64,000 bases of DNA from Plebeiibacterium marinum (GTDB lineage Bacteria; Bacteroidota; Bacteroidia; Bacteroidales; Marinilabiliaceae): assembly GCF_026013615.1 (NCBI RefSeq), contig NZ_JAPDPI010000026.1:1-64000 (forward strand), read 5' to 3'. Below are positions 12,601 to 22,292 of this stretch, piece by piece. The stretch's first letter is position 1. Each line of letters opens with the position of its first letter. The position numbers and the translations under genes were made by a program. The notes below the pieces were generated by a model. That model saw only the letters and a program-made list of their open reading frames with translations, searched no databases and was not told where the DNA came from.

Positions 12601-12735
12601 ATAACTATTGACTAATACCCTTCATTGTCCTATAAACCAATGACCTTTGACCAATAACCAATGACCTTGACCAATAACCAATGACCAATAACTATTGACC
12701 ATTGACCAATAACCATTGACTCTATTGACTATTGG
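12601..12735. repeat. Degenerate word repeat (ACCAATAACCAATG)
   Basis: About eight loosely tandem copies of a 10-14-base word such as CCAATAACCAATGA, varied by small substitutions. It fills part of the 485-bp gap after the radical SAM gene. It is non-coding and G-poor on this strand. Apart from this and the hairpin repeat that follows, the gap holds nothing I recognise. Confidence 0.75.
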
Positions 12736-12746
12736 CCTGCTTTTTA

Positions 12747-12920
12747 CGGATCCGATCTTATTTACAAATTACATATAAAGAACGGATCCGGGGAAATGTT
12801 GTTCCTGAGGAAAAATGCTGTAGTAGCAAGCATTTAAGCTAGCGCTTCCGCTGAGTAGCTTTAGCGTTTGAGGAAAGCACAGCGTCCTAAAGGCGTAGCT
12901 ATCCTACCAGCTAATGGCTA
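12747..12920 (+). repeat. Lone copy of the hairpin repeat found in the 19-20 kb array
   Basis: This copy begins with CGGATCCGATCTT (12747-12759), pairs with AAGAACGGATCCG (12778-12790), and continues through ATGCTGTAGTAGCAAGC, AGCGTCCTAAAGGCGTAG and CAGCTAATGGCTA. It carries an extra segment of about 40 bases (roughly 12842-12880) that the array units lack. It ends four bases from the stop codon of the lipoprotein gene at 12925, as the array ends five bases from the stop at 20232. Confidence 0.85.
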
Positions 12921-15940: not shown

Positions 15941-15953
15941 AGATATAAAATTT

Positions 15954-16136
15954 GTTACTGGCTACTGGTTGCGTGTTACTGGTTGCAGGTTAATTGTTAC
16001 GTATTATCGATTACTTGTTACCTATTGCCTGCTACTTGTTACTGGCTGCTGGTTGCGAGTTGCGTGTTGCAGGTTACTTGTTAATTTTTACTTGTTAATT
16101 GATCATTGTTAATTGATCACTGATCATTGTTACTTG
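15954..16136. repeat. Degenerate word repeat (TTACTGGTTGCGTG)
   Basis: A 180-base stretch of overlapping short words (TTACTGGCTGCTGGTTGC, GTTACTTGTTA, TTAATTGATCATTG) between the RluA gene start and the TolC gene end. A shorter stretch of the same style occurs at 25130-25178. It is non-coding. Confidence 0.7.
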
Positions 16137-17624
16137 TTACTGTTTCAGTCCTTCCAACAAGGGGTTGCTGTACATGATTTTTTCATTACTCTCAAAATCA
16201 AAAAGCGTAAGTTCCCTCAACCTGTAGTACGACAACCAGTAAGTTTCCAATGACTTCACATAATCTCTTTTTGCCTTCTCCCTGTCTGATAAAGAAATAT
16301 TCAGATCGGTGATACTAATCTCTCCATTCTGAAATTTTTTTAAGGCAATCAGGTAACCATTTTCGGCCACTTTATCTGCTTCCTTGGCAATATCCAACTG
16401 ATCCTTGAGCAAACCAAACTGTTCGACCTGCACAATAACATTACGCTCAAAATTTTCCTTATCCTGCTGCACATCAAATAAAACCAAGTCACGCTTGCTT
16501 TCGGCCAGCTTTACGTTTGAAGAAGACTTACCCCAATCCAGAAGAGGAATAGATAAGGATATGCGGAGCGATTGCTGATTCACCGTATTCTCGTATACAC
16601 CCGGAATCTCCTCTGCTATATTCGTAGTTCCATAAGTCCCTTTTAAAGTGGCCGCCAATCCATTATCTCTTTTTGCCTTGGTCAAATCACGCCTGGCCTC
16701 AATAAGCCGGCGCTCATACGCGGTCGTCTCTTTCCTGTTGGCAAGAGCTTCTTCTAAAGCCTTATCCGGATCCACATTAAACAGAACCATATTTAATGGC
16801 ATTGACAACTCCACATTGGTTGACTGATCCAGTCCGATATATTTTTTCAGTGCAAAATCCGCATTTCTTAAATCCATAGTGGCCTGACTCAAGGCCTTTT
16901 GGGCAGTTAGTACCGATAATTTTATCCTTGAGTAATCATTTTCACTAATAATACCCAGTTTGATTTTTGTCTCTGCAATTCTAAGGTTATCCTTGCTGTT
17001 GTTTAAACTATTTTCTGCCAGTTTAAAATTGGTTTGCACTTTTAAATAGGTAAAAAACAACGAAACAGCTTTTCTGGAAATATCTTCCAGTGATTCAATA
17101 AAATATTTTTGGGCTTCATTATAAATCAATGGCTCTGTTTTTTTCGACCACTTCATCCAGTTATAGGCAAAAATCGGTTGTGTAACACCAATCAAAAATG
17201 GATTCCCCTGAAAGTTTGTGTATTCATGAACTAAATCCTCATACCTAAAAAGCGTACTTTTTGCGTAAATGTAAGTTCCTGATTGCGGTATGGACTGGTT
17301 AACCGATAACTGCGCACTGTTTTTAAAATAACCCACCTCCCTAAACTGCACACTACCATCATTCTGGGTAATAGGCCGGGTGCCTTCCTCATAATTAGGC
17401 AAATCACCACTCAACACAAACTGAGGGCGAAACTGGGTTTGAAAGTTCTTCCACCTCCAATAGTTATTTTCATACCGGTTTTGTGCATATTTAACAGCAG
17501 AAGACTGACTTACTGCTAAATCAACCACATTTCTTAAGCTGAGGTTTAATTTCTTTTCCTGTGATTCTGCCTTTACTAAAACTAAAAAGAACACCCCTGT
17601 AATAATGCAAACAATTCGTCTCAT
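16137..17624 (-). CDS. TolC-family outer-membrane efflux protein
   Basis: A 495-residue protein with a signal peptide (MRRIVCIITGVFFLVLVKA) and the two long coiled-coil helical repeats of the outer membrane efflux protein family, for example ENSLNNSKDNLRIAETKIKLG and AKEADKVAENGYLIALKKFQNG. It should form the trimeric exit duct of a tripartite pump or a type I secretion system. It follows the adaptor gene by ten bases in one operon. No inner-membrane ABC or RND component adjoins. Confidence 0.9.
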   Translation of the reverse strand: MRRIVCIITGVFFLVLVKAESQEKKLNLSLRNVVDLAVSQSSAVKYAQNRYENNYWRWKNFQTQFRPQFVLSGDLPNYEEGTRPITQNDGSVQFREVGYFKNSAQLSVNQSIPQSGTYIYAKSTLFRYEDLVHEYTNFQGNPFLIGVTQPIFAYNWMKWSKKTEPLIYNEAQKYFIESLEDISRKAVSLFFTYLKVQTNFKLAENSLNNSKDNLRIAETKIKLGIISENDYSRIKLSVLTAQKALSQATMDLRNADFALKKYIGLDQSTNVELSMPLNMVLFNVDPDKALEEALANRKETTAYERRLIEARRDLTKAKRDNGLAATLKGTYGTTNIAEEIPGVYENTVNQQSLRISLSIPLLDWGKSSSNVKLAESKRDLVLFDVQQDKENFERNVIVQVEQFGLLKDQLDIAKEADKVAENGYLIALKKFQNGEISITDLNISLSDREKAKRDYVKSLETYWLSYYRLRELTLFDFESNEKIMYSNPLLEGLKQ

Positions 17625-17634
17625 CCCACACCCT

Positions 17635-18831
17635 TTAACGCTTTTCTATTTTTACAGATCCCACCTCTTTTAACGGAACTTCTGATGATATTACGATTTC
17701 ATCCCCTTCTTTAAGCCCCTCTTTAACCTCAATAAACTCATCGGTAATCAAACCCAATGTAACTTCCTTACGAACGGCACTGTCACCGCTAACCAATAAG
17801 GCTTTCTGATTCTTCTTATTATTAAACAAAGAACCCCGTTTTATCCTCAACACATCATACCTTGCTCTTTTAACAACTTCAAGGTTAACCTTTTGATTTG
17901 GGATTAACTTTGGATGGTCACTTTCTGTTAAGCAAATCGTAAAACCTAAGTTATTATTCTCCAACTGAGGATTAACGCTGGCTACCCTTCCCTCCAGACG
18001 GTTTTTATCGACCAAAACATAAGCCCTTCGACCAGTTTTTATAAGATTTTTAAACTTACTATCGATAGAAGCCCTGATTTTAAGCCGCGACAGATCGGAC
18101 ATGGTAACAAGCAACTTTTCTCCCTGGATTTTTTCACCCTCTTTAGCGTTTACCGAAAGGACAATCCCATCCGAAGGGGCTTTAACCTCCATTAATCCGA
18201 GTAACTCTTTCTGATTACCAAGCTCCTTTTGCTGCATTTCAATTTGCAGCAACAATCCTTTTTCATCAGCAGCCAACTGTGCAATCCTGATAGAGTTTTT
18301 TTCCCGAACCAACTTTAAGTCCTTTTCTGCCAAAACCAGCTCTTGCTTGGTCTTATCATATTTGGCCTGTGAAATACCCCCTACTTCCAACAATTGTTTT
18401 TGATCGGCAAGGGTAGATTTTATAGAGGCAATTTTTAACTTTTTAGTTTCTTCATTATAAGCCAGATCAGCCCTGGTGCTTCTGGCATTCAACCTGTTCT
18501 TTTCCAGATTATTTTCTTTTACAGCCAATTGATCGTTAAGCTGTTCTATTTTGGCCTCAATAGATTTAGTATCCAGTTTTACGATTACATCACCTTCTTT
18601 TACCGGATGGCCGGGTTCCTTTACAATTTTTGCTACGATACTCGCGGCAGGACTTAGCAAGAGCACTTCATTGGCCGGGATTACATACCCCTCTGTTGGA
18701 ACAAATGTTTCAATATTGCCCACATCAATTTTGTAGGTCTCAAATTTCCCCGTTATCAATTCCGATTGCTTCGATTGGCAACCTAACGCTATCGTTATCA
18801 ATACAATTACCCAAATATTTTTTTGCATCAT
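17635..18831 (-). CDS. HlyD/RND-type periplasmic adaptor lipoprotein
   Basis: A 398-residue membrane fusion protein linking an inner-membrane pump to TolC. I place the start at MMQKNIWV (18831), which gives a lipoprotein signal (LITIALGCQS) rather than a 19-residue leading extension. The mature part has a barrel-sandwich lipoyl half (VKEGDVIVKLDTKSIEAKIE), a long coiled coil (about 85-205), the second lipoyl half (APSDGIVLSVNAKEGEKI) and a C-terminal beta domain. It is the first gene of the pair with TolC. The tandem repeat array lies directly upstream, so its promoter must lie in or just before the array's left edge. Confidence 0.9.
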   Translation of the reverse strand: MMQKNIWVIVLITIALGCQSKQSELITGKFETYKIDVGNIETFVPTEGYVIPANEVLLLSPAASIVAKIVKEPGHPVKEGDVIVKLDTKSIEAKIEQLNDQLAVKENNLEKNRLNARSTRADLAYNEETKKLKIASIKSTLADQKQLLEVGGISQAKYDKTKQELVLAEKDLKLVREKNSIRIAQLAADEKGLLLQIEMQQKELGNQKELLGLMEVKAPSDGIVLSVNAKEGEKIQGEKLLVTMSDLSRLKIRASIDSKFKNLIKTGRRAYVLVDKNRLEGRVASVNPQLENNNLGFTICLTESDHPKLIPNQKVNLEVVKRARYDVLRIKRGSLFNNKKNQKALLVSGDSAVRKEVTLGLITDEFIEVKEGLKEGDEIVISSEVPLKEVGSVKIEKR

Positions 18832-18957
18832 ATAGTCCTTTGTAATTTTTATTGCAAAACAGCCATAAAAATATACAATATCCCCCAAAAAGTAAGGGTT
18901 AACATTTACAAATATGATTTTTAGCAGATATTACACAGACAATTTGCCTGATTAATA

Positions 18958-20226
18958 CGGATCCGGGAAAATGCTGCTCCTGAGCAAAAATGCTGTAGTA
19001 GCAAGCAATCAGGCTAAAGCGAAGCGTCCTAAAGGCGCAGCCGTTCTATCAGCTAATGGCTAAATTATATGGATCCGATCTTATTTACAGGGCGCTTATA
19101 AAGAACGGATCCGGGAAAATGCCGCTCCTGAGCAAAAGATGCTGTAGTAGCAAGCATTCAAGCTAAAGCGTAGCGTCCTAAAGGCGTAGCTGTCCTATCA
19201 GCTAATGGCTAAATTATACGGATCCGATCTTAATTTCAAGGTGCTTATAAAGATCGGATACGGGAAATACTGCTCCTGAGCAAAAATGCTGTAGTAGCAA
19301 GCAAGCAGGCTAAAGCGCAGCGTCCTATAGGCGTAGCCGTCCTATCAGCTAATGACTATTATACGGATCTGATCTTAATTTCAAGGTGCTTATAAAGATC
19401 TGATCCGGGAAAATGCTGTTCCTGTACAAAAATGCTGTAGTAGCAAGCAATCAAGCTAAAGCGAAGCGTCCTAAAGGCGTAACCGTCCTATCTGCTTATA
19501 GCTAAATTATACGGATCCGATCTTTTTTACAAATCGCTTACAAAGATCTGATCCGGGAAAATGCTGTAGTAGCAAGCAATCAGGCTAAAGCGAAGCGTCC
19601 TAAAGGCATAGCCGTCCTATCAGCTATTGGCTAAATTATATGGATCCGATCTTATTTACAGGGCGCTTATAAAGAACGGATCCGGGGAAATACTGCTTCT
19701 TAGCAAAAATGCTGTAGTAGCAAGCAATCAGGCTAAAGCGAAGCGTCCTATAGGCGTAGCCGTTCTATCAGCTAATGGCTAAATTATACGGATCAGATCT
19801 TATTTACAAGGCGCTTATAAAGATCGGATCCGGGGAAATGCTGCTCCTGAGCAAAAATGCTGTAGTAACAAGTTATCAAGCTAAAGCGAAGCGTCCTAAA
19901 GGCATAGTCGTCCTATCTGCTTATAGCTAAATTATACGGATTCGATCTTATTTACAAGGCGCTTATAAAGATCTGATCCGGGAAAATGCTGCTCCTGAGC
20001 AAAATGTGTATTAGTAGCAAGCAATCAAGCTAAAGCGAAGCGTCCTAAAGGCGTAGCCGTTCTATCTGCTAATGGCTAAATTATATGGATCCGATCTTAT
20101 TTACAGGGCGCTTATAAAGAACGGATCCGGGAAAATGCTGCTCCTGAGCAAAAATGCTGTAGTAGCAAGCAATCAAGCTAAAGCGAAGCGTCCTAAAGGC
20201 GCAGCCGTCCTATCAGCTAATAGCTA
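18958..20226 (+). repeat. Tandem array of nine hairpin-bearing units of about 148 bp
   Basis: Nine units begin (at the right stem arm) near 18958, 19106, 19255, 19400, 19548, 19677, 19825, 19973 and 20122. Spacing is 145-149 bases except one 129-base interval, where unit 5 lacks about 19 bases. Each junction carries CGGATCCGATCTT, an 18-20-base spacer, then AAGA(A/T)CGGATCCG, an inverted repeat. The body of each unit has ATGCTGTAGTAGCAAGC, GCGTCCTAAAGGCGTAGC and CAGCTAATGGCTA. Unit 1 lacks the left stem arm. The array fills the 1.4-kb gap between the adaptor and acyl-CoA synthetase genes and ends five bases from the latter's stop codon. Confidence 0.95.
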
Positions 20227-20231
20227 TTTCT

Positions 20232-22292
20232 CTATTTCCAACCATGCGCCACCCTGATCCTGGCATCCACAGCAATAATCGTATCCCGGTTCCCCATCAA
20301 GGGATTTATATCTATCTCTTTTATTTCAGGGGTATACGTCAGCATATTGGAAAATTTCACAATAACATCAACAAATCCATCAATTGAAACGCCATCTACT
20401 CCTCTGACTCCTTTTAAAATATCATACCCTTTTAATGCTTTAATCATACCCAATGCTTCCTGTTTGCACAAAGGAGCCAAACCAGAACTAACATCTCCCA
20501 TTACTTCAACAAAAATACCCCCCAAGCCACACAATACCACATGTCCAAAGCCCTCTTCGTATTTTGCACCCAAAAACAGCTCTATTCCCGAAACCATAGG
20601 TTGAATCAACACTCCTTGCGCTCCCTGGATATCCATTAAACGTTGATACTCCTTTGTTAGCCTATCCATATTATCAATATCCAACACAACACCGCCCACA
20701 TCTGATTTATGTACCGGGCCAACCACCTTTATCACAACAGGAAAGCCTATTTTATTTGCTACATTTTCAAGTTCATCTTCCTGAGTAACCACAACCTCTT
20801 CCACAAAAGGGATACCGGCTAACGCCAGAACTTCACTTACTACCTCAGGAGCTAAATACCCATCCTTATTCTGAGCTACAATTCCTGCAATTGCATCTAC
20901 CACATCAATAGGATCAGTTTCAAACAAGTCCCTATGCCGGTTCTGAACTTTAATCAACGCCTCGGCAAACAACACTTCATCCGGAAAACAAACATTTCCT
21001 TTGGATACAAAGTATTCTATATCATTTTTCACATTGATAATTGAGGGCAATACCGGAAAAATTGGTTTAGAACCAATTTGCATCTTATGATGAAGCATTT
21101 CATAAACATCTTTTACAGGAACAAGTCCAGGACTTCCAAAAATAACCACCATACCATCTATCTCATCAAAATCATTTTCGCAAGCATCAATTATATGTCC
21201 CAGTTGCTCCGCATTGCCTGTAGCTAAAAAATCAATAGGGTTGGCCACACTCGACCCATCATAAAGTTTTTCTTTTAAAGCCGATGCTTTCTCCCCTTTT
21301 AATGTTGGAATGTTAAACCCTCCACCCGAAAGGGCATCCGTTAGCATTACTGCTGGACCACCAGCATGGGTAACAATGGCCAGTTTTTTACCTTCCAACT
21401 CTTTACACATAAAAACTGCTGCCACCGTAGCCAACTCCCCCCTGCCATAGCAGCGGACTATCCCTGCCTTTTTAAACAAAGCATCTACTGCCACATCCGG
21501 GTTGGCTATTGCCCCGGTATGACTCGATGCAGCCCTGCTACCCTCATCCGAGGAACCCGCTTTTATTGCCGCAATCCTACATCCTTTCTTATTTAACGAT
21601 CTGGCATGCTTTAGCAGTTTTGCGGCATCTTTTATACTCTCCATATACAAGAGCTTGATACGGGAGCTCCTCTCATAATCAAAAGTTTCATCAAGGTATT
21701 CCAAAATATCTTCCACCCCAATTTGCGCACTGTTACCAACCGAATAAACACTATTAAACTTTAGTCCTAAAGGCATCCCCGCTTCTAAAATAAAAACTGC
21801 GGTAGCCCCTGAGGCTGAAATGAAATCAGCTCCCTCATCCTGCAAATCCGGGATCGGTGCTGTAAATACACTATGGTGAACACTATTCATCATCCCAATA
21901 CAATTTGGGCCAATCAAACATCCCCCAACCGAATTGATAACATCCACAATCTCTTGCTCCACCCTGGCGCCTTCTTCACTTTCCTCTCCAAAGCCTGCCG
22001 AAATAATAATAAATGCCTTTGTGCCTTTCTGTATGGCAAGGGTTTTAACTGCACCCAAACAAAATTTTGCAGCAACAGCCAACACTGCTAAATCAACCTT
22101 AGCCGGTATGTCTTCAACACATGAAAAGGTTTTCTGCCCCTGAACATCTGGCGACTTTAAGTTGGTAACATAAATCGCGCCCTTAAAACTTGCTACAATA
22201 TTTTGGAGTATTTTACCTCCGGGCTTTGTCAGATCATCAGATCCTCCAATAACGGCAATGCTTTGGGGATTTAAAAGTTGATTGTTTATCAT
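20232..22292 (-). CDS. ADP-forming acyl-CoA (acetate-CoA) ligase
   Basis: A 686-residue single-chain NDP-forming acyl-CoA synthetase. The order is a CoA-binding Rossmann domain (1-130; SIAVIGGSDD, GPNCIGMMN), the succinyl-CoA-ligase-like domain with phospho-His258 in SSHTGAIA, and a C-terminal ATP-grasp domain (about 460-686; GFPVVIKVVGPVHKSDVGG). It interconverts acyl-CoA, ADP and phosphate with the free acid, CoA and ATP, and so yields ATP at the end of fermentation. The substrate, acetate or another acid, is not fixed. It is monocistronic and divergent from hydE. Confidence 0.92.
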   Translation of the reverse strand: MINNQLLNPQSIAVIGGSDDLTKPGGKILQNIVASFKGAIYVTNLKSPDVQGQKTFSCVEDIPAKVDLAVLAVAAKFCLGAVKTLAIQKGTKAFIIISAGFGEESEEGARVEQEIVDVINSVGGCLIGPNCIGMMNSVHHSVFTAPIPDLQDEGADFISASGATAVFILEAGMPLGLKFNSVYSVGNSAQIGVEDILEYLDETFDYERSSRIKLLYMESIKDAAKLLKHARSLNKKGCRIAAIKAGSSDEGSRAASSHTGAIANPDVAVDALFKKAGIVRCYGRGELATVAAVFMCKELEGKKLAIVTHAGGPAVMLTDALSGGGFNIPTLKGEKASALKEKLYDGSSVANPIDFLATGNAEQLGHIIDACENDFDEIDGMVVIFGSPGLVPVKDVYEMLHHKMQIGSKPIFPVLPSIINVKNDIEYFVSKGNVCFPDEVLFAEALIKVQNRHRDLFETDPIDVVDAIAGIVAQNKDGYLAPEVVSEVLALAGIPFVEEVVVTQEDELENVANKIGFPVVIKVVGPVHKSDVGGVVLDIDNMDRLTKEYQRLMDIQGAQGVLIQPMVSGIELFLGAKYEEGFGHVVLCGLGGIFVEVMGDVSSGLAPLCKQEALGMIKALKGYDILKGVRGVDGVSIDGFVDVIVKFSNMLTYTPEIKEIDINPLMGNRDTIIAVDARIRVAHGWK

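Follow-up and report, generated by a model that had tools for sequence, protein, structure and literature searches.

The window analysed here is the whole 64 000-nucleotide stretch, positions 1–64 000 of contig NZ_JAPDPI010000026.1 of Plebeiibacterium marinum. Between two genes it carries an intergenic, non-coding tandem array, which a pattern scan of the window resolved into nine cores of the repeat with eight complete hairpins of 42 nt. The features are as follows.

17635–18888, reverse strand: flanking open reading frame, presumably encoding a membrane-fusion (HlyD-like) protein as judged by eye; the array lies upstream of its start
18958–20226, forward strand: nine-unit tandem array, intergenic; nine cores with eight complete hairpins between them
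19071–19112, unstranded: REP-like hairpin 1 (42 nt), used for folding
19220–19261, unstranded: REP-like hairpin 2 (pattern scan)
19365–19406, unstranded: REP-like hairpin 3 (pattern scan)
19513–19554, unstranded: REP-like hairpin 4 (pattern scan)
19642–19683, unstranded: REP-like hairpin 5 (pattern scan)
19790–19831, unstranded: REP-like hairpin 6 (pattern scan)
19938–19979, unstranded: REP-like hairpin 7 (pattern scan)
20087–20128, unstranded: REP-like hairpin 8 (pattern scan)
19165–19200, forward strand: conserved core block, unit 2 as the example, with GCGNAGC words at 19168 and 19184
from 19016, 19312, 19458, 19587, 19735, 19883, 20032 and 20180, forward strand: core block in the other units; units 4, 5 and 7 have an altered second GCGNAGC word
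20232–22292, reverse strand: flanking open reading frame, its stop codon 6 bases from the array end; by eye we take the product to be an acetate-CoA ligase/CoA-binding protein
12748–12789, unstranded: second locus in the window, a single hairpin followed by one core with an insertion (to 12920)

Every hairpin and core of the array is arranged head to tail. The units start at 18960, 19108, 19257, 19402, 19550, 19679, 19827, 19975 and 20124, which gives spacings of 148, 149, 145, 148, 129, 148, 148 and 149 bp. The initial annotation had described nine units at 145–149-base spacing, one of them short by about 19 bases, each opening with an inverted repeat and together having no protein product. 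The array and its nine cores are real, and the short unit is unit 5, which has lost ∼19 bases and whose spacing of 129 bp falls outside the range given. The inverted repeat has to be placed differently: the hairpin sits between cores and does not open each unit. None of the listed open reading frames of at least 80 amino acids lies inside the array, in agreement with the absence of a product. The TRF rows over the array overlap, with periods of 129–149 and 297, and the main rows (148, 149 and 297) score 929–1105. At the left end (ATACGGATCCGGG) there is a single GGATCC where a hairpin would carry two, and a hairpin appears to have been lost here through its palindromic ends; at the other end, the last core has no hairpin after it. 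The whole unit repeats with nothing interposed, neither unique spacers nor cassettes, so CRISPR and attC arrays were rejected, and the earlier dismissal of these and of tRNA arrays holds. A neighbouring protein has its nearest named relative in Plebeiobacterium sediminum (67% identity). The window also contains two arrays of 7-bp units at 12636–12734 and 15952–16141 (ACCAATG-like and TTGTTAC-like), and many of the repeat blocks in the rest of the genome have similar heptads (TAGCTAT and GCGGAGA) at their borders.

Both parts of the unit are dispersed through the P. marinum genome. A 161-bp query taken from the array gave 114 matches at E ≤ 0.001; patterns allowing up to three mismatches found 74 hairpins and 86 core blocks, compared with 0 for the reversed patterns, and a 20-bp part of the core was found 98 times (≤2 mismatches; reversed control 0). 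When the window units and the matches of a first round were combined into a profile, it returned 126 matches in 49 blocks, over the window and 24 further stretches fetched from the same genome. The two parts are separable, as hairpins occur without cores (locus L039) and cores, of ∼105 bp, without hairpins (locus L030); many blocks stop near core position ∼103 and several begin with the hairpin. On 14 contigs a copy of the repeat lies within about 200 bp of an end. The assembly therefore probably breaks at arrays of this family, and the copy numbers are lower bounds.

The units have drifted, as the initial annotation had it. Among the 80 units with enough core for comparison (30 blocks, out of the 126 profile matches), identity is 0.886 within arrays (121 pairs) and 0.826 between arrays (3039 pairs), and none of 2000 label permutations reached the observed value. 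The most alike pair of all (0.98) is a pair between arrays, not within one. Since units are more alike within than between arrays, the arrays appear to have grown largely in place. The same likeness would suit simple local duplication with no dispersed component, a reading that is refuted by the dozens of copies across many contigs and that we give practically no weight.

Outside this genome the unit is hard to find. Neither the hairpin nor the core pattern (≤3 mismatches) was found in any of 99 relatives, including eight congeners. With the DNA as query, 40 relatives yielded two weak matches, both in the congener G007; the 148-bp profile, run against 80 named loci, seven RAYT/Y1 loci of the P. 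marinum genome and two G007 loci, found only the G007 pair (E = 0.01 and 0.17), and the fetched flanks of the seven P. marinum Y1 matches held no unit match at E ≤ 1. The 20-bp core part matched in two of 70 relatives (G019 and G002), which is not above chance given 10 matches of the reversed control in the same set. Exact core patterns gave no match in the genome_contigs and viral_contigs collections, a scan from which the P. marinum genome itself was possibly absent. The initial annotation had named a lack of other copies in related genomes among the things that would refute it: many copies exist elsewhere in the same genome, although none of the relatives searched has the full unit.

Within the core, a block (GCTAAAGCGNAGCGTCCTAAAGGCGNAGCCGTCCTAT) is nearly fixed. 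Its non-N columns are all conserved at 0.87 or more, most of them at 0.96–1.0 (up to 111 copies per column), and across about 100 copies core columns 55–91 hardly vary but for two positions. These two, the most variable of the 149 unit columns, are exactly the N of two GCGNAGC words, each of which is followed by CGTC; the commonest base reaches 0.41 (first N: A 41, C 39, T 20; second N: T 41, C 39, G 11, A 8). A GNA loop on at least two G–C pairs is the rule that PMC4686876, citing Yoshizawa 1997, gives for DNA mini-hairpins of high stability, and the synthetic mini-hairpins reported there resemble the core in the GC(GNA)GC word and the free N, here in about 100 copies, with the fold in the cell putative. 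Nearest-neighbour DNA folding did not single out the core block (z = 0.32). Fixed surroundings with a free apex would fit a folded single strand, a lead to be set beside hypermutable sites or other contacts. On a bolder and rather doubtful reading, the 37-bp core block would itself be a single-stranded DNA recognition element, two GNA-loop mini-hairpins read in folded form by a nuclease or replication factor, and the 148-bp unit a two-part mobile or recombining composite REP; no description of a REP joined to a mini-hairpin pair was found in the REP/RAYT and mini-hairpin literature searched. Another genus has a short stretch of three GCGNAGC words (N = A, C and T) at about 1462–1530 of locus L383 (G019:C195); it lies between two open frames and overlaps the end of one of them.

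The near-invariance of columns 55–91 would also be expected of an array kept by selection as a binding site for a nucleoid protein, gyrase or a replication or segregation factor, and REPs and BIMEs are said in PMC2817692 to be sites for several proteins. However, array length is variable and none of the eight congeners has the unit, unlike a conserved segregation site, and no result points to a binding protein; we regard a protein-binding array as improbable.

The hairpin has the stem GGATCCGATCT and its kin are found more widely than the unit. Hairpins of similar size and loop, with compensated changes in the stem, occur in congeners and in another genus of the family. One of the weak G007 matches (locus L041) shares the loop motif TATTTACAnnnnGCTTATA, while its stem differs by three compensated changes and has a single mismatch. 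A loop-only pattern gave 17 matches in the eight congeners, compared with one for the reversed control; by our own reading, eight of these (G002, G005 and G007) have GGAACGGTTCT-type arms and the other nine do not. Outside the genus, the same pattern matched 22 times in 110 genomes and its reversed control 16 times, so single matches there are mostly chance. Hairpins of 41–43 nt with a GGATNCGATCT stem are present in 12 of 71 genomes of the family, namely P. marinum and 11 others that all belong to one genus (reversed control 0). A loose loop-and-stem scan of 20 loci was undiscriminating (124 matches, compared with 47–97 for shuffled motifs), so use was made only of matches whose arms are near-perfect. 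At locus L209 (G000:C98; loops at 434 and 1511), hairpins of a further family, similar in the loop and with the stem AACCTTCCGGGTTT, flank an open reading frame of 314 amino acids (501–1445) that by eye is unlike a RAYT.

Covariation in the stem was measured on 41 hairpins, a hand-chosen subset of the copies, over 15 pairs. The score was 0.289, compared with 0.091 (s.d. 0.013) for shuffled and at most 0.071 for slid alignments. Paired cells made up 93.0% (80.4% shuffled, 33.8–48.7% slid), a percentage biased upward as most of the hairpins were found through their complementary arms, and 62 cells had changed on both sides, compared with 24.1 in the shuffles. Two other counts, of pairs with changes in both arms (seven of 15) and of further pair types (16), stayed within the shuffles (75 and 72 of 500, respectively). 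Four of the rows had been found by the loop only (G062, G007 and two of G002/G005); in three of these the eleven outer pairs of GGAACGGTTCT/AGAACCGTTCC are complete, and the fourth has a mismatch.

Hairpins of this type border genes for REP-associated tyrosine transposases (RAYT/TnpA-REP). RAYT loci were taken from a protein search: 80, being part of all RAYT matches, were reduced to 53 on removal of duplicates and of those with no tblastn match, and to 45 on removal of eight too near an edge. A hairpin lies within 300 bp upstream in 24 of the 45, downstream in 28 and on both sides in 20; 32 have at least one border hairpin and 13 have none by the rule used. Control windows 900–1200 bp out, possible for 21 loci, gave one upstream, four downstream and none on both sides. 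One RAYT of 202 amino acids, in genome G068, has a GGATGCGATCT-stem hairpin 53 bp upstream, one compensated pair from the array stem; its other border, 85 bp downstream, is a GGATACGATCT-like hairpin in which one pair is mismatched. Within its clade (the gene and relatives at 47–52% identity; six loci, G102:C50 being left out), five of six have both borders by the strict rule, with stems GGATRCGATCT, GGAACGGTTCT or GGAGCSGYTCT; the sixth, L298, has none by this rule, but a laxer one finds a hairpin of the type there, 43 nt long. In another genus (G062), a RAYT-like pair of open reading frames is bordered by two GGAACGGTTCT-type hairpins. Six RAYT proteins were tested against family models: each had NCBIfam NF047646 ('REP-associated tyrosine transposase') as its best match, one above the cutoff and five below, and with Pfam Y1_Tnp two passed the cutoff, three fell below it and the G068 protein gave no match.

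No RAYT bordered by a GGATCC stem was found in the 98%-complete P. marinum assembly. Two related RAYTs of this genome (on contigs C163 and C88) are bordered by other stems. The C163 protein (210 amino acids, with NHFH and YIHQNPVKAG) is both bordered and interrupted by other-stem hairpins, and the 19-nt loop of a border hairpin is identical at 18 of 19 positions to the best-matching loop of the array hairpin family; its own kind of hairpin has only three copies at ≤3 mismatches, compared with 74 of the array type. The frame of this resident gene (L049, 1069–1701; G000:C163) holds hairpin-like repeats and stays open. A second RAYT type in the genome (L046/L280, 189 amino acids) is bordered by GCGAAGCG...CGCTTCGC palindromes. 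At L046 (1000–2200; G000:C22) palindromes such as CAGCGAAGCGAGACGCTTCGCTG form the borders, with an arm resembling GCGAAGCGTCC of the core, a likeness too short for anything to be claimed from it. At L290 (G015:C5), six hairpins spaced at 68 bp lie at 2221–2597, a short way downstream of a RAYT; this is a separate instance of tandem REP growth in the family.

The closest described relatives are the atypical REPs of TnpA-REP subclass 2.6 (Bertels group 5), reported in PMC6006769 as hairpins of Bacteroidetes that lack a GT[AG]G foot, lie at the borders of Y1/RAYT genes and have copies elsewhere in the genome, structures that it says need manual inspection. The array hairpin likewise has no such foot, and RAYT genes in the family are bordered by hairpins of like loop and stem; the hairpin reads as a REP because it shares the loop and compensated stem changes with these border hairpins. 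It differs from subclass 2.6 in that the array family is high in copy number, has no same-stem RAYT in the assembly, and is joined to a long core in up to nine units. The subclass motifs NH[LIV]H and YIH[QN]NP are matched only in part by the RAYTs here, as read by eye from the open reading frames (C163 NHFH/YIHQNP, C88 NHIH/YIHFNP, G068 NHFH/YCHYNP).

REPs in general are palindromes of ∼20–40 bp with many extragenic copies; the 42-nt hairpin is slightly longer than the quoted range and is present in the 74 copies given above. The REPtron arrangement, in which a RAYT is bordered by its own type of REP, is seen in related genomes with compensated stem changes; for this stem no such case was found in the P. 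marinum assembly. GTAG- and CGTC-tagged REPs are similar short palindromes, reported in PMC3733652 to lie mainly downstream of genes, with CGTC REPs rarely clustered. The array hairpin carries neither tag: its feet are ATAC/ATAT and GGGAAA/GGGGAA, with no GTAG or GTGG, and it has no CGTC. The CGTC of the core follows GCGNAGC stems of only 2–3 bp, compared with 8–9 bp in the tagged REPs of that account, so the core was dropped as a GTAG or CGTC REP on stem length. BIMEs and REP/REPIN arrays in P. fluorescens SBW25 are also tandem REPs with flanks, scattered and in some cases beside RAYTs (PMC3116915). Unlike these, the array consists of single hairpins head to tail at about 148 bp, with no GTAG foot, and a BIME or REPIN in the sense of inverted REP pairs was rejected. 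In the wide sense of a clustered mosaic of REPs and other short repeats it is a BIME, since hairpin and core occur both apart and together. A hairpin of near-perfect arms that is also found singly might be a MITE-like remnant of an ordinary DNA transposon, with 12–13-bp terminal inverted repeats around a 16–18-bp centre, but the 42-nt size, the shared loop and the relatives that border RAYT genes fit a REP better, and such a remnant is very unlikely.

Folding and placement bear on whether the repeat acts as RNA. Folded as DNA, a 53-nt stretch that includes the first hairpin outdoes each of 200 shuffles (z = −3.3). The hairpin has an RNA fold too, with z = −2.5 and −3.9 for the two strands, a result that by itself does not tell RNA from DNA function. 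A mostly-core stretch of 141 nt folds as RNA no better than shuffles on either strand (z = 0.03 and 0.58), and Rfam gave no match over the window at the gathering score nor over 18900–20300 at E ≤ 1; the structural RNA that the initial annotation gave as one option is not supported as the main reading by these results, and a known structural RNA was rejected. Placement was examined in the window and the 24 fetched stretches with heuristic open reading frames (≥90 amino acids; those mostly inside a block were dropped). Overlap with an outside frame exceeds 40 bp in none of the 49 blocks. Where there is a gene on the core-end side (43 blocks), its 3′ end is the one faced in 28, 11 of them within 30 bp, compared with 18 of 41 and two on the opposite side (Fisher p = 0.079 for facing and 0.014 for within 30 bp; two tests, on heuristic frames). 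The intergenic siting, this leaning to gene 3′ ends and the RNA fold of the hairpin would be consistent with a functional RNA or 3′-UTR element, a terminator, mRNA stabiliser or decay signal downstream of genes. REPs have, however, also been reported downstream of genes (PMC3733652), so that the siting fails to separate the two, and the fold of the core, the lack of an Rfam match and the absence of the full unit from the relatives searched speak against an RNA, which we consider possible but unlikely.

We therefore read the array as a tandem BIME-like cluster in which a 42-nt atypical RAYT-type REP hairpin is joined to a second dispersed repeat, the ∼105-bp core, and give this a probability of about 0.82. 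The recombination substrate listed by the initial annotation as one option stands in so far as this is a REP cluster of that sort; the link to REPs and RAYTs had gone unrecognised. The REP-type repeat is a known bacterial element, and what is unusual here is its form as a tandem array joined to a second repeat; no description of this hairpin-and-core family was found in the REP/RAYT and mini-hairpin literature searched. The mobility of the repeat and the enzyme acting on it are inferred. Single copies would have spread as single-stranded hairpins through the HuH nuclease of a RAYT, and the hairpin-and-core unit would then have multiplied in place by slippage or by unequal recombination between direct repeats. 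The partner RAYT may have been lost or may lie in an assembly gap, or the loop in common may let a resident RAYT act in trans. We think it most likely that the array, settled between genes, came about as a by-product of a mobile repeat that is non-autonomous, with effects on neighbouring transcripts at most secondary.

The array hairpins give sequence detail to the 'atypical' REPs of Bacteroidetes RAYTs, which here have a near-fixed size, a recurring loop and a stem that varies between lineages in compensated pairs. A REP is in this case part of intergenic satellite arrays in a genome in which no same-stem RAYT was found, and as a resident RAYT shares the loop of the hairpin and not its stem, the question of which enzyme spreads the REP becomes testable.
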